Below are positions 13,939-21,372 of a DNA stretch of 23,557 bases, in pieces. The notes beneath the pieces are model-generated. The model ran no database searches. It was given only the letters and a program-made list of their open reading frames with translations, and had not been told where the DNA came from. Source of the DNA: a virus. Numbering within the stretch: position 1 is the first letter of the stretch; every line of letters begins with the position of its first letter. The stretch is from the IMG/VR virus record IMGVR_UViG_3300025769_000858, positions 1-23,557 of that record; one strand, given 5' to 3'. A program made the position numbers and the translations under genes.

Positions 13939-15555
13939 CTATGGCGTGCCTTGCTGTAGCACCTTGATCGCTGGCGCTACCGAACCCAAAGCCTCGGCGG
14001 TTTGTGTCGCCTCGTTCAGCTGCTGCTGCACCTGCGCCTGTTCCTGGCGCTCTGCTCGCTCGCGCATAATCTCACCTTCACCCTTTGTCACGCGGGCCGG
14101 GATCGATAGCGTGTGCAGCATGTAGCGGACCAGACCATCGGTATCGAGATGGTCAAACACTGTCGGGTCTATTCCAGCAAGCGGGCTGAGAAGTTCGAAC
14201 AACCGCACGATGCCCTGCACGTCGGACTGACGCTGCGCTTTCGCGAGCGGGCTGACGTACTCAATATCCAGATCATTGTTCAGCAGCGTCTCTGGCGCGG
14301 CCGGCAATTTATTCTGCCGGTTCAATATTTCGTATACGCGGCCAATCATGGGCTGAAGAAGTTCAGCCTGGAGACGACCCAGCACAGGCCCAAGTAGCCT
14401 CATCTTCTCTTCAGTGCGGCTGACCACCTCGGTCGCAGTCATCTGCGGCCCGGTGCCAAGTGTAAGCTGATCGACGTAAAACGCCGATCGGATCGCCTGG
14501 CGGCGCTGTTCTTCAAGATTAAGGCCAAGCGGATTGTTAGCGCCAATCTGCAAAGGCTCGATGCGATCGCGCGTACCGCCGCGATAGAAATTCAAGCCGC
14601 CTGGTGTGGTGCGGATCGGCAGCATGAACCCATCGTCTGGCACCATCAGGGGCGGGTCCACCTGCTTCTGTGCGGCCATGATCGTAACGCGCGACATGGC
14701 GTTAATCATTTTCGCATCAGGTAAACTGGTCATCGCGGGCGAACGTCCGTAATTTTGTTCGAAGCTGCTTTTGAGCCAGCGGGGTGCAACATAGGGAAAC
14801 TCGTCATAGCCGGCTTCGCGCAAAACAATTTTCTCGCCGGGGTCCATGTAAATACTGGCAAACGGTTTGTTGTTCGCGTCAATGCGTTGTGCGTCACGCT
14901 CAGTGCGCGGCATCACCACATGCACCAGCTTGACCTCTTCGTAAGGGTCACGCTCCAACTTGCGCTGCATCTTTTCGCCAAGGTTCTCAGCACCAAACAT
15001 CTGCGCGACCGATCGCACAGACATTTTGAACTCGCGGAACACCGTGTCTACGCGGCCAAACTGATCTTCGGACAGGTAGCACTCGCTGATATGGCGGGTG
15101 CCGAAACGGACGCCTTCGCCTTCGGGTGCGGCATCAATCATCATCACGCCGGTGCCAAACGTCACCAGGTCGCTGTACAATTCGTGTATCTGTTCCGCAA
15201 AGTTACTGCGCTGAAACTCGCGCTGCATGATACCCGTGACGGCTTCCAGAAACTCCTTCGCCTCGTCGTCGTTGTTCAATTCCTCATCGAGGTATGCCAG
15301 ATCAAACCAGTTCATTGACGGGTTGGTCAGCATCCCATGCAGTGAGGCGGAAAGCATTTCAGCGGCTTGGATCGCGGTGCCGTCGTAAATCTGCTCCATG
15401 CGCTTGTCGCCGGCAGAACGCTTCTTCGTCACGTCCGCCTTACGCGGCACAACGTACTCGGCGACCTCTTGCCAGTGCTGCTCCCACGTCGCGCGCTGTA
15501 CGCGCAGCTTGTCCAGCCGCTTCAGCAGAACGCGGGCGCGATCGTCCTCCGCCAT
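13939..15555 (-). CDS. Portal / head-tail connector protein, T7 gp8-like, 538 aa
   Basis: The N-terminal region has LDKLRVQRATWEQHWQEVAE and YVVPRK. It is followed by QIYDGTAIQAAEMLSASLHG and MLTNPSMNWFDL, the core signature of the podovirus head-tail connector family (about residues 14-86). Further family features are RSPAMTSLPDAKMINAMSRV near 270 and QMTATEVVSRTEEKMRLLGP near 365. The C-terminus (about 500-538) is Gln/Glu-rich and helical. Length 538 is typical. Twelve copies form the vertex ring through which DNA is packaged and which binds terminase and tail tubular A. The ATG at 15555 lies one base after the stop of the proline-rich gene. Confidence 0.93.
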   Translation of the reverse strand: MAEDDRARVLLKRLDKLRVQRATWEQHWQEVAEYVVPRKADVTKKRSAGDKRMEQIYDGTAIQAAEMLSASLHGMLTNPSMNWFDLAYLDEELNNDDEAKEFLEAVTGIMQREFQRSNFAEQIHELYSDLVTFGTGVMMIDAAPEGEGVRFGTRHISECYLSEDQFGRVDTVFREFKMSVRSVAQMFGAENLGEKMQRKLERDPYEEVKLVHVVMPRTERDAQRIDANNKPFASIYMDPGEKIVLREAGYDEFPYVAPRWLKSSFEQNYGRSPAMTSLPDAKMINAMSRVTIMAAQKQVDPPLMVPDDGFMLPIRTTPGGLNFYRGGTRDRIEPLQIGANNPLGLNLEEQRRQAIRSAFYVDQLTLGTGPQMTATEVVSRTEEKMRLLGPVLGRLQAELLQPMIGRVYEILNRQNKLPAAPETLLNNDLDIEYVSPLAKAQRQSDVQGIVRLFELLSPLAGIDPTVFDHLDTDGLVRYMLHTLSIPARVTKGEGEIMRERAERQEQAQVQQQLNEATQTAEALGSVAPAIKVLQQGTP

Positions 15556-18144: not shown

Positions 18145-18627
18145 CTATTGTTTCGACGTGTCGTCAGCCACCAGCTTGATGACATCGGCCGGCTCAGACT
18201 TGCCTTGCTCCTGCTCGTCCGGCACGGCTCCCCACACCAGCGTCACTGGTCCGCTTTGCTGCTCGATGTCTTCCTTCTTGTGACGCACACCACGGGGCTG
18301 CATCTTCGCGAACGTCCACTTCTTGGTGTCAACCTCAAGCCGACGACGCTGCACTTCGGCGTTCATGTATCGCGGGTCCATGTCCGTCGGCAGCGGAGAC
18401 GCCGCCAGGTCATGCATCTCGTCGCTCAGAACCTCGGCGCCGATCGCTCTCGCACGGCTGTACATATCGAACAGGTCTTCATCACGCTGCACCGCCTTCA
18501 GCACCGTGACCCAATGCGGCATGTTCTCGCCCTTGTCACACACCGAACGCAGCGACTTGCCCTTCGCGAGTTCGTCGCAGACTTCCTGCATCTTCGACTT
18601 CGTGACCTTGAACCGCTTGGTCATCAT
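18145..18627 (-). CDS. terS: Terminase small subunit, 160 aa
   Basis: Terminase small subunits recognise phage DNA and recruit the large subunit. The N-terminal region TKSKMQEVCDELAKGKSLRS, followed by VCDKGENMPHWVTVLKAV, is the helix-turn-helix pattern of one common phage TerS group (IC..LA.GkSLr.IC...MP..sTV). It continues with FDMYSRARAIGAEVLSDEMH, and then the RRRLEVDTKKWTFAKMQPR motif at about 94-112, equally typical of the group. I start at the ATG at 18627 (an ATG pair, 18627/18624). A longer frame to 18696 would be read through a perfect terminator hairpin. The ribosome site is poor (GGGTGG directly before the ATG). A candidate promoter and terminator lie just upstream. Confidence 0.87.
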   Translation of the reverse strand: MMTKRFKVTKSKMQEVCDELAKGKSLRSVCDKGENMPHWVTVLKAVQRDEDLFDMYSRARAIGAEVLSDEMHDLAASPLPTDMDPRYMNAEVQRRRLEVDTKKWTFAKMQPRGVRHKKEDIEQQSGPVTLVWGAVPDEQEQGKSEPADVIKLVADDTSKQ

Positions 18628-18634
18628 CCACCCA

Positions 18635-18657
18635 TAAAAAAACCCGCCGAAGCGGGT
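18635..18657 (-). terminator. Intrinsic terminator / possible attenuator directly before terS
   Basis: Read on the minus strand, ACCCGC-TTCG-GCGGGT forms a 6-bp stem closed by a stable UUCG-type loop, followed by seven T residues. The T tract ends 7 nt before the terS ATG. It would stop transcripts coming from the replication genes as well as those from the candidate promoter at 18686-18715. Confidence 0.9.
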
Positions 18658-18660
18658 GAT

Positions 18661-18676
18661 TGGCGTCAGAACGCCA
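18661..18676 (-). promoter_or_regulatory. Leader hairpin upstream of the terS terminator
   Basis: Read on the minus strand, TGGCGT-TCTG-ACGCCA is a perfect 6-bp stem with a 4-nt loop, located 3 nt upstream of the terminator stem. The two tandem hairpins would form the first transcribed part of the terS leader if the candidate promoter is real. It could be an antitermination signal, a pause signal or simply RNA structure. Confidence 0.55.
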
Positions 18677-18685
18677 CCATACAGA

Positions 18686-18715
18686 AAAATACCCACATTT
18701 AGTGTGCATCGTCAA
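18686..18715 (-). promoter_or_regulatory. Candidate sigma70-type promoter for the late (terS) operon
   Basis: The minus strand carries TTGACG (18715-18710; 5 of 6 to consensus), an 18-nt spacer, and TATTTT (18691-18686; 4 of 6). It lies in the short gap after the DUF6362-like gene and upstream of the tandem hairpins and terS. Transcription would start near 18679. Sequence match alone is modest; the location is what makes it credible. Confidence 0.45.
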
Positions 18716-18724
18716 CACCAAACA

Positions 18725-19141
18725 CTACATCTTGTACCACAACTCCAAAATAGCCCGCTCAAACCGCCGCTTGGCCGTCGCCGGGTGACAGCCCACCAAA
18801 CCCGCCACACGGCGCCATGCTGGCCCTCTCTGCCGCCTCACTGCCGAATGGGCTACTGCCCATACCAAACGAGCGTCATCGGCCTCCAGCAGCCTTGTAA
18901 GCCGCAACGCAGCATCCCAGCGATCAACCTCACCCGCATCAGCCGGACTCGGTCGCACCTCGAACTCTCCATACCCATAAGCCAGCCCAGGATCAGGCAG
19001 ATAAGTTGGCCAGGCCACGCGATACTTTTTCCGCATCACTCCCGGCATCTTCCGCTCAGTCTCAGCGGCTTCAAAGAACAAACCAACCAACCCATCGACA
19101 TCGCCGACACGCTGCCGCAAGGCTTCAAATTCACCCATCAT
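18725..19141 (-). CDS. DUF6362-like HTH protein, candidate regulator, 138 aa
   Basis: The family pattern is clear. EAAETERKMPGVMRKKY-x-x-AWP (24-45) is followed by a GYGEFEVRPSPADAGEVDR segment and then ADDARLVWAVA (87-97). The C-terminal WRRVAGLVGCHPATAKRRFE (109-128) is a sigma-factor-like helix-turn-helix. I recall DUF6362 as a family of alphaproteobacterial phages and prophages with no proven function. The HTH implies DNA binding. Start: ATG at 19141 (or 19138), with GGAAGG 6 nt upstream. The gene lies between the palindrome/TGCGCA region and the promoter-terminator leader of terS. That makes it a candidate regulator of late genes or of its own promoter (inference). Confidence 0.75.
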   Translation of the reverse strand: MMGEFEALRQRVGDVDGLVGLFFEAAETERKMPGVMRKKYRVAWPTYLPDPGLAYGYGEFEVRPSPADAGEVDRWDAALRLTRLLEADDARLVWAVAHSAVRRQRGPAWRRVAGLVGCHPATAKRRFERAILELWYKM

Positions 19142-19300
19142 TGCGCACCTTCCGCCAACGTACTAGCCACGTTTACTGCGCACCAAGTGCGCGCCAAATG
19201 CGCAGCAAGCGCATTGGCGTGCGCGTGCGCAGTAAACTAGTACGGAATTTTTCTGCGCGCGCACTTTTTGCGCAGCTAATGCGCAGTAAGCGCGCAGTAA
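19142..19300. repeat. TGCGCA / GCGCAGTAA repeat cluster
   Basis: Six copies of the palindrome TGCGCA start at 19142, 19177, 19199, 19226, 19269 and 19280. GCGCAGTAA occurs directly at 19227-19235, 19281-19289 and 19292-19300, and inverted (TTACTGCGC) at 19173-19181. Further TGCGCGC and GCGCGC variants lie between them. The density far exceeds chance and the stretch has no ORF of its own. It could be an origin with iterons, an operator array or a terminase-binding site. Confidence 0.75.
19159..19244. repeat. 86-bp imperfect palindrome (potential cruciform)
   Basis: The outer arms CGTACTA (19159-19165) and TAGTACG (19238-19244) pair. The middle arms GTTTACTGCGCAC (19171-19183) and GTGCGCAGTAAAC (19225-19237) are perfect over 13 bp. 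The inner arms CGCC-AAATGCGC (19192-19203) and GCGCATT-GGCG (19209-19219) pair over 11 bp with a single-base bulge around the loop AGCAA. The whole folds into one long hairpin with small bulges. It lies between the primase/helicase stop and the DUF6362-like start. Confidence 0.85.
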
Positions 19301-19320
19301 CAGACCAAAAACAAACACCC

Positions 19321-19342
19321 CAATGTTCACCCATTGTTCACC
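19321..19342. repeat. Tandem 11-bp repeat across the primase stop codon
   Basis: CAATGTTCACC and CATTGTTCACC stand head to tail and differ at one base. The left copy contains the stop codon of the primase/helicase gene. This is short, but it borders the repeat cluster to its left and may belong to the same regulatory or origin region. Confidence 0.6.
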
Positions 19343-21372
19343 CCCGGCAGCTTGTCATAATCAACGAATAATCCTTCATCAGATCGCCGGCGAACTGGGT
19401 TCTTGTACTCGTCTGAAAACAGGACGCCGGACTGTTGCCACGCTCGAATGATGGTTTTTGCAGCGCCATCTGCGATGCCCATTTGCACCAGCACTGTGCC
19501 GGCCCAACGTGCGGCAGACCTTTGGGTCCAGGTGTAGCGTTGGCCGTCGTCCAACCCCTCGCCAATCAGCAGCAAAGCACGTCGCGCACCATCAACGCCC
19601 AGCCCGTCAAATGGGTCAGGCGGCGACCAGGGCGCCAGAACGCCCACATAATCGCCTTGCATTAACTCAACCGAATGACGCTCGAACCACACCGCATCCG
19701 CGCTGGGTGCGCTCATATTGCCCTTCGCGTCGTCAACGCGGACGTACCACGACCGCCGCGCGGGCAGGATGTCGAAGCCTTCAGCCTCTTTGTCTGACAT
19801 CGGTGTAATGGTCCGCGCCGATCGCACGGCACCGGCCAAAGCGCCGGCGCCTCGCGCAGTGTTTATGTCGCCGGCAGTTGCCACGAAACCAGACGGCGGT
19901 TTGCGTGTGTGATGGACAAGATCAATGGCCGCACCGCACCGCTTTGCTACATCAGCGAACACGTCCAGCACCGCATCGATCTGCTTGTTGTCGTTCTCTT
20001 CGGCGTAGTGGGCCTTTACGAGCGGATCGACCTGGAGCAGCCCGATGTCCAGCCGCTGCATCTGCTCGATGACCTGCTCCGCGGCCACTGTCGGCGCCAC
20101 AATGCCGTCCACTGGCTCGGCGACAATCATCTTGCAGTCGCGGCCGCTATCGAGAAATAGCCAGCCTTCCAACTCACCGGGATCAATATCAAACTGCTCG
20201 CATATGGCCCACGCCCGCCGCAGCAGTTCGTCGCGCGGATCTTCAAGGTTGTAATGCCACACACGAACCCGCTCTCGTACTGGAACGCCCAGCAGGTCGC
20301 GCCCCGTCGCTAGCGCAATGGCTTCGGTCAGTTCCAGCGTGGTCTTGCCCACGCCACCCGGCGACACGGTAGCCGACACATATCCACGGATCAGATGCTT
20401 GCCATACAGCCACCGACGCGGCTCTACGCCGCGCATATCGGCAGCACTGAAGCCTGATGCCATAACGCGCACAATTCGCGTCTGGACCCCATCCAAGACC
20501 GCCTGACGGCCCTCAGAAACCCACACGTCGTTCCAGTCCAGACCGACGTCGTCCGGCATGACAATATAGTCGGGCTTCGCCTTCCTCGCACCGTCCATGC
20601 CCGCACCGCTCTCGTCATTATCGGCCGCAATCACGATCTCAGCGCGCGGCCACGCAGCACGCAGCCCCTCAACCACCGGCGCAAGATTGCCGGCGTCGAA
20701 CGCACACACGGCACACTGGCCGGTCGCCTCATATACAGACGCCGCGGTCGAATAGCCTTCGGCGACATAGATCACGCCGGATGGCCGGCCCAACATAAAG
20801 AAGCCGCCCTTCTTGCGACCACCAGCCAGAAACCGCTTCTCGCCATCAGGCCCAATCGTCTGGTGTGAAATCACCTGCCCGGTGCTATCCACGATCGGGA
20901 TCAGCAGCTTGTCGCCGTCCAGCAGCAACCCGTGCGATCCGACCTGCTTGTCCAGCAGGTAAGGATGATCGACCGCGAACTCTGCCGCGGCGATGTCCTG
21001 CTCCGCCTGGGCCGCTGCCTCAATGCGCCGCGCCTCGATCTCTGCGGCCTGTCGTTCACGCGCAAGCTGGATGTTGTGCTTTTCAACAATGGTCAGCGCG
21101 CCAGCCTCACGGCTGCACCATGTTTGCTGACCGCGTCCCGCCTTCCACGATCCGAACGAGCCGTAAAGAATGCCGTCTAACTCGGACAGGACATACCAGC
21201 CGGACGTGTTCTTGCCCCGCGCCTCACCGTCAGGCACACGGTGGATCTCATCGTCTGCCACTGCCACGCCAGCCAGGCGCAGACCGAACGCTGATGCTGC
21301 GTCGGTGAAGTCGCGCACAGATTCCAAGCCGCTCACCTGCGGGCGTATAATTATCTCAGGTATCGCGACCAC
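19327..21372 (-). CDS. Primase/helicase: TOPRIM plus RecA-like (RepA/AAA_25-type) ATPase, 681 aa
   Basis: The N-terminal domain (about 1-150) has the SGWYVLSELDGILYGSFGSW and QTWCSREAGALT pattern of phage primase-helicase proteins, then a charged helical linker (100-135). The TOPRIM domain covers about 196-290: VIYVAEGYSTAASVYEATG contains the catalytic Glu (E205), and IVIAADNDESG contains the D-x-D pair (D251, D253). The C-terminal ATPase starts near 328 with Walker A SPGGVGKT (337-344). Walker B is LLQVDPL (445-451), followed by DLVHHTRKP (484-492). The start is GTG at 21372, overlapping the methyltransferase stop (TAGTG). It would prime and unwind DNA at the phage fork. An N-terminal zinc-binding domain is not evident. 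Confidence 0.88.
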   Translation of the reverse strand: MVAIPEIIIRPQVSGLESVRDFTDAASAFGLRLAGVAVADDEIHRVPDGEARGKNTSGWYVLSELDGILYGSFGSWKAGRGQQTWCSREAGALTIVEKHNIQLARERQAAEIEARRIEAAAQAEQDIAAAEFAVDHPYLLDKQVGSHGLLLDGDKLLIPIVDSTGQVISHQTIGPDGEKRFLAGGRKKGGFFMLGRPSGVIYVAEGYSTAASVYEATGQCAVCAFDAGNLAPVVEGLRAAWPRAEIVIAADNDESGAGMDGARKAKPDYIVMPDDVGLDWNDVWVSEGRQAVLDGVQTRIVRVMASGFSAADMRGVEPRRWLYGKHLIRGYVSATVSPGGVGKTTLELTEAIALATGRDLLGVPVRERVRVWHYNLEDPRDELLRRAWAICEQFDIDPGELEGWLFLDSGRDCKMIVAEPVDGIVAPTVAAEQVIEQMQRLDIGLLQVDPLVKAHYAEENDNKQIDAVLDVFADVAKRCGAAIDLVHHTRKPPSGFVATAGDINTARGAGALAGAVRSARTITPMSDKEAEGFDILPARRSWYVRVDDAKGNMSAPSADAVWFERHSVELMQGDYVGVLAPWSPPDPFDGLGVDGARRALLLIGEGLDDGQRYTWTQRSAARWAGTVLVQMGIADGAAKTIIRAWQQSGVLFSDEYKNPVRRRSDEGLFVDYDKLPGVNNG

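Follow-up and report, generated by a model that had tools for sequence, protein, structure and literature searches.

In the sections of PMC7581432 devoted to them, the Rep helicases of SaPIs are described as recognizing, through their C-terminal domain (CTD), iterons that lie directly downstream of their own gene, and binding to such a downstream site has been shown for Cch2 of SCCmec. Three further arrangements are described in the relevant parts of PMC4234260. The P4 alpha protein unites a TOPRIM-type primase, unwinding activity, and a winged helix that binds origin repeats; RSF1010 has iterons and short stem-loops exposed for priming, and its RepC opens the way for RepA; and the archaeal plasmid pRN1 needs a stem-loop just 3' of the gene for its primase-helicase-winged helix protein. 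PMC7145576 and PMC7157519 concern other RepA proteins.

Here, we analyzed a 23,557-base virus record (the window, meaning the whole stretch of DNA) in which a short spacer lies among minus-strand genes for DUF6511, C5 methyltransferase, TOPRIM+AAA_25 primase-helicase, DUF6362, small terminase, large terminase, and head-tail connector proteins. Ring helicases of the type encoded here generally depend on other proteins to reach an origin, RepA of RSF1010 being one case. Our main reading, to which we assign a probability of about 0.8, is that this spacer is a replication origin, or the initiator-binding core of one, that would be recognized by the CTD of the adjacent primase-helicase.

The locus combines features of the described systems in a new setting. 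As in P4 alpha, a TOPRIM primase, a helicase, and a predicted winged helix share one chain, but the P4 alpha helicase, a member of SF3, differs from that of the window. With RSF1010 oriV the locus shares the RepA helicase family, iterons, and a stem-loop; unlike RSF1010, which divides the work among RepA, RepB', and RepC and has RepC read the iterons, it carries primase, helicase, and proposed reader in one chain, the primase domain being fused to the helicase. The pRN1 origin differs in having no iterons and in using a prim-pol with an SF3 helicase. As with SaPI Rep and Cch2, iterons stand directly downstream of the helicase gene, with a CTD as their proposed reader; unlike those proteins, which the sections on them in PMC7581432 place with DUF927/Cch-related and Primase_Cterm/D5-like helicases (Cch2 being 3'-to-5'), the window protein has a RecA-type motor and a fused TOPRIM primase. 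The origin logic is thus SaPI/P4-like and already known, and the motor is of the SF4 RepA/T7 type; the new elements are the family to which the helicase belongs, its setting in phages, and the evidence from natural swaps. A literature search that took in few subscription papers gave no report of a phage helicase of the RepA/T7 type that carries an iteron-reading domain of its own, and a word search of the main text of two roseophage papers (PMC12629253, PMC11288001) returned neither "iteron" nor "repeat."

Organization of the spacer

A reading made from the sequence alone had singled out this spacer as exceptionally structured DNA, citing an 86-bp palindrome with 13-bp perfect arms and an AGCAA loop, six TGCGCA sites, and GCGCAGTAA in three direct copies and one inverted copy. 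All of these elements are present as described. The total of TGCGCA in the window is ordinary (21 matches against 18.2 expected), so it is the clustering of 6 of the 21 within 185 bp that counts. For GCGCAGTAA, there are 5 matches in the window against 0.26 expected, and 4 of them fall in the spacer; an isolated copy lies at 15203-15211, within the head-tail connector gene. Folded as DNA, positions 19130-19340 give z = -7.7, with none of 200 shuffles folding as well. When 220-bp stretches were taken every 55 bp across the whole window, repeats peaked in the spacer, at 8 compared with a mean of 3.2 and a standard deviation of 0.7. The helicase 3' spacer likewise ranked first for repeat density in all nine sequences scanned along their length, namely, the window, six related contigs, and the cultured phages CRP-823 and CRP-831, with G003 and G004 covered to base 40000.

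Two features went unmentioned in that reading. The direct iterons follow one another at a pitch of 11 bp on the coding strand of the helicase, and the same iteron, as an inverted pair, forms the 13-bp arms of the palindrome. On that strand, the order is three direct TTACTGCGCA-like iterons, A-runs, the CCGTACTAG element, and the palindrome with its inner stem-loop (Table 1). A second short repeat with 11-bp spacing, CCCAATGTTCA/CCCATTGTTCA, occupies window positions 19319-19340 and overlaps the helicase stop codon. The sequence TGAACAATGGGTGAACATT at the helicase 3' end may resemble P4-type repeats.

TABLE 1 Features of the spacer and its surroundings (window coordinates)
Feature	Position	Strand	Description
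Origin-like spacer	19142..19326	-	185 bp; directly 3' of the primase-helicase gene, up to the DUF6362 start codon
Primase-helicase gene	19327..21372	-	TOPRIM + AAA_25 (RSF1010 RepA-like) + CTD
DUF6362 protein gene	18725..19141	-	Neighbor; not the determinant of the array
Small terminase gene	18145..18696		PHROG 1482; ~450 bp from the spacer
Direct iteron 1	19291..19300	-	TTACTGCGCG
Direct iteron 2	19280..19289	-	TTACTGCGCA; 11 bp from iteron 1
Direct iteron 3, degenerate	19269..19278	-	TAGCTGCGCA; 11 bp from iteron 2
CCGTACTAG element	19237..19245	-	Contains GTACTAG, invariant in 14/14 aligned spacers
Imperfect palindrome, 86 bp	19159..19244		Outer 8-bp arms 19159-19166/19237-19244
13-bp perfect arms of palindrome (iteron arms)	19171-19183/19225-19237
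Inner stem-loop of palindrome	19192..19219		Loop AGCAA at 19204-19208
CTD codons, residues 592-670	19363..19599	-	Predicted winged-helix topology; proposed iteron reader; coordinates from residue numbers
Predicted third (recognition) helix codons, residues 635-648	19429..19470	-	Coordinates from residue numbers

An inverted repeat of this size, standing where replication genes give way to structural ones, could also be a terminator, a late promoter, or a structured RNA between early and late genes. Within 18900-19500, we found no terminator-like and no promoter-like site, a weak result given that 0.9 and 0.4, respectively, were expected, and Rfam and tRNA searches of the spacer region returned no match. 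A terminator would not be expected to have multicopy iterons that vary in concert, and we regard a transcriptional or RNA element of this kind as very unlikely.

Arrays behind related helicases

Helicase profiles matched 142 open reading frames (ORFs) in 193 sequences, drawn from the best 80 matches per search and thus a sample rather than a census, and removal of near-duplicates and short spacers left 71 loci. At each, we counted the copies of one 8-mer, with 1 mismatch allowed, in the 220 nt that follow the stop codon; the final 220 nt of coding sequence served as a control at 70 loci. At least six copies stood right after the helicase stop at 45 of the 71 nonredundant loci, compared with 2 of the 70 coding controls. 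Counts above all 40 shuffles were obtained for 49/71 helicase spacers and 5/70 controls, leaving 22/71 spacers with no clear array by this measure.

Among named phages, 9 of 13 loci have 6 to 10 copies, some of these arrays being redundant or C-rich (CRP-811 repeats CRP-823; Smarc2), and 4 have fewer than six, including Caulobacter phage RW with 5 against a shuffle maximum of 4. Two helicase relatives came from bacterial genome contigs, of which L224 was examined and L223 is cut off. Immediately after the stop codon of a 37%-identical helicase from a Rhodospirillales MAG stand 6 copies of GCGGAAGT, of which the first three are spaced by 10 bp. A blastn search of the phage collection with the spacer itself returned no match. 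In the comparison with related phages that the sequence-only reading had proposed, relatives do not lack the repeats. One relative, G001, has genes for a phage integrase, located about 9 kb ahead of its helicase, and for a Vut_1 (vitamin-uptake-transporter-like) protein (L197 5838-7028 and 13230-13955), and its first 30 bases recur near its end.

The distribution of arrays also bears on the genes beside the spacer. The same reading had suggested that the repeats might be the operator array of the DUF6362 protein, whose gene adjoins the spacer in the window and whose C-terminal sequence, by reading, looks HTH-like. We compared 49 DUF6362 loci, obtained from 111 DUF6362 ORFs after removal of duplicates and short flanks. 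Arrays of at least six copies were found upstream of DUF6362 at 22 of the 24 loci with a helicase ending no more than 450 nt away, compared with 3 of the 25 others. Where an ORF separates the helicase from DUF6362 (L056 and L057), the array is at the helicase, with 7 and 9 copies, against 3 and 3 at DUF6362. Arrays also occur with no same-strand DUF6362 in the fetched DNA of L025, L032, L037, L038, and nine named-phage loci. These results contradict an operator for DUF6362, which we consider highly improbable.

A packaging (pac/cos) site for the nearby small terminase, the third suggestion of that reading, would suit the position of that gene in the window; judged by eye, L025 too has a small-terminase-like gene, no more than about 1 kb away. 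In eight named phages with arrays, however, the gene next to the array has no terminase match in PHROGs, and the annotated array neighbors in CRP-823, CRP-831, CRP-811, and 16-3 are not called terminase. The iteron sequence, moreover, follows the helicase CTD (below). The chance that terminase is the intended partner appears very slight.

Iteron sequence and the C-terminal domain

By sequence and fold, the protein belongs to the RepA helicase family (1g8y match, E = 2.8e-16). Outside the CTD, Foldseek and profile searches match it to T7 gp4 and RSF1010 RepA, and its core is of the AAA_25, RepA, and T7 gp4 type, not of the SF3/D5/DUF927 type. AlphaFold2 models of two family members, the window protein and L060 (20 and 19 sequences), have moderate whole-chain confidence (mean pLDDT, 67.7 and 77.0; pTM, 0.51 and 0.44). 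In both, mean pLDDT per ten residues over the last domain is 79 to 92; helices there precede a beta-hairpin, and the third helix is long (635-648 in the window, 596-609 in L060). From this order of predicted secondary structure, we read the CTD as a predicted winged helix. A Pfam scan of seven CTDs gave nothing above the family cutoff, and the Foldseek matches shown fit the primase/helicase part and not the CTD. When the CTD was searched by profile against solved structures, none of the four matches was credible; the best was a de novo-designed alpha-helical barrel (E = 0.0019), and the others had an E value of about 1.

Copies inside one array largely agree in sequence, as would be the case for sites of a single DNA-binding protein. 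The iteron is TTACTGCGCA in the window and L061/L063, TTTGTGCGCA in L007 and L017, TTTGGAGCGCA in L009, L011, and L024, ATCGGAGCGCA in L008, and ATCGGGGCGCA in L026. Within the family of the window, a GCGCA core is mostly kept and the 5' half of the iteron varies. More distant helicases are followed by iterons such as ACACCGCAA, GCACCGAA, CGGGACAT, TACTACAA, and TGTATAAA, among others.

The proteins are mosaic: a single helicase core is combined with variable CTDs and with either of two very different N-terminal primase regions, which share 11 to 13% identity and each have TOPRIM-like motifs. Divergent primase regions (11 to 13%) are fused to a near-same helicase core (85 to 89%) in close relatives (window versus L017-L032). 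More broadly, the primase modules beside such helicases are of TOPRIM types or of the polymerase/primase type of phage 16-3.

This mosaicism provides natural swaps. In the pairs with divergent CTDs, namely, window-L008 (primase/helicase/CTD identity, 93/97/42%), L017-L024 (93/97/42%), and L018-L026 (91/97/44%), the iterons differ: changes fall in the 5' half and the GCGCA core is retained, although some L018 copies have TCGCA. Among pairs with dissimilar primase regions, those whose CTDs are alike have the same iteron, namely, L007-L017 (11/85/85%; one L007 direct copy is off by a base), L009-L024 (13/87/66%), and L011-L024 (13/89/68%; two L011 direct copies deviate); the iterons of L008-L026 (12/86/59%) are 1 bp apart. 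Among cultured Roseobacter phages, CRP-823 and CRP-831 are 71% identical over the last 90 amino acids and 90% identical over the rest, and their iterons are TACTACAA and TGTATAAA, respectively; each array has 10 copies, and between the two phages 9 of the 10 start positions lie no more than 2 nt apart. CRP-823 and CRP-811, at 90% and, over the last 90 amino acids, 98% identity, have TACTACAA in common. The pair L050/L052 had been considered as the key domain swap; L052 has an exchanged CTD, but because its array (3 copies against a shuffle maximum of 4) does not rise above shuffles, the pair was dropped as main evidence.

In a partial Mantel test on 44 loci (45 with L055), picked for at least six copies and so representing loci with arrays, iteron similarity correlated with CTD given core at 0.278 (P = 0.0005) and with core given CTD at 0.078 (P = 0.024), meaning that a weak association with the core remains. 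L055, which lacks its helicase core, was left out; its inclusion gave partial values of 0.247 and 0.034. Shared ancestry inflates such correlations, and the swap pairs are the stronger evidence. About a dozen residue columns, e.g., T614, W615, Q617, and A634, separate the GGAGCGC/GGGGCGC iteron class from two others, which in 17 related sequences is suggestive only. Taken together, the swap pairs and the partial Mantel test point to a strong association between CTD and iteron, at the level of sequence comparison. Since the repeats tend to change when the CTD changes, these comparisons suggest that the C-terminal end of the helicase reads the repeats.

A CTD that reads the iterons could also do so for control, in partition, incompatibility, autoregulation, or transcription insulation, with replication starting elsewhere. 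The comparative evidence for CTD reading applies equally to this possibility, the GC skew does not point to the spacer, and related phages may be temperate, as indicated by the integrase in G001. On the other hand, the proposed reader is itself a primase-helicase, and a sigma-70 consensus scan, a weak test with 0.4 sites expected, found no promoter-like site. Iterons or a hairpin right behind an initiator gene also match known origins, as these are presented in the pertinent parts of PMC7581432 and PMC4234260. We consider a role confined to control unlikely.

Conservation of the hairpin and a candidate route of initiation

The layout of the spacer is retained among relatives. The hairpin regions of seven further relatives folded with z scores of -3.0 to -6.8; none of 200 shuffles did as well in six of the seven, and 3 of 200 did in L026. 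A consensus fold of 14 spacers (RNAalifold) showed two-sided changes at 7 of 19 pairs and did not recover the outer palindrome arms. We omitted the iteron-made outer arms from the covariation count because inverted iterons would covary even if no hairpin formed. The inner stem scored 0.359 for covariation, compared with 0.158 for shuffled alignments (0/500 as high) and at most 0.118 for slid versions, although the tested stem was derived from the consensus fold of the same 14-spacer alignment and relatedness alone can lift sequences above such shuffles when no structure exists. Of the five measures, the count of further pair types was unremarkable, with 97/500 shuffles as high. The inner stem of the hairpin thus appears to covary among the 14 relatives.

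Between the direct iterons and the palindrome, the window (19237-19245) and 13 relatives carry GTACTAG (alignment A7). By eye, this motif stays invariant where the inverted partner arm is lost (L008, L009, L011, L024, and L026). Also by eye, the arrays of L057, L059, L060, L066, L194, L195, and L212 contain a short hairpin centered on CTATAG, CTTTAG, or CTATATAG, and these hairpins of distant arrays are mostly flanked by inverted iterons.

The GC skew of eight records runs in one direction overall, with small local reversals and no consistent inflection at the array. The skew check that had been proposed for this locus is therefore uninformative, lending neither support nor refutation.

That the spacer could be the origin used by the neighboring primase-helicase was the first suggestion of the sequence-only reading, and, unlike the operator and terminase suggestions, it gains support from comparison, in that arrays follow the helicase and change in swap pairs. 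Sequence comparison shows an array that changes in concert, is linked to the helicase gene, and is associated with its CTD, and a conserved hairpin with a covarying inner stem. From these we infer a course of binding, melting, loading, and priming that would amount to origin function. The CTD would bind the iterons at their 11-bp pitch and dock the primase-helicase there. Assembled at the iterons, the primase-helicase would then open the DNA and load its own RepA/T7-type ring, and its own TOPRIM domain would prime. For loading or priming, single-stranded hairpin DNA would probably come from the palindrome. Since the gene ends with the reader domain and the array comes next, a single recombination tract could exchange both.

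We see about an even chance that these loci represent a widespread class of phage origin, undescribed so far, in which site-specific initiation and loading fall to the SF4 (DnaB/T7/RepA-type) ring helicase itself. In such a class, a C-terminal winged helix that can be swapped would read the adjacent iteron address, and reader and address would move as a single cassette, irrespective of primase module and helicase core. CRP-823 and CRP-831, whose arrays differ in sequence within one scaffold, would then exemplify compatible "plug-in" origins. A primase, a helicase, and their own origin reader in one protein, with the origin adjoining, would make a minimal and testable initiation system, for which the natural swap pairs CRP-823/CRP-831 and window/L008 would be ready-made tests of how such a domain changes DNA specificity. 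The arrangement would also provide a rule for finding origins in many uncharacterized marine and soil phages.
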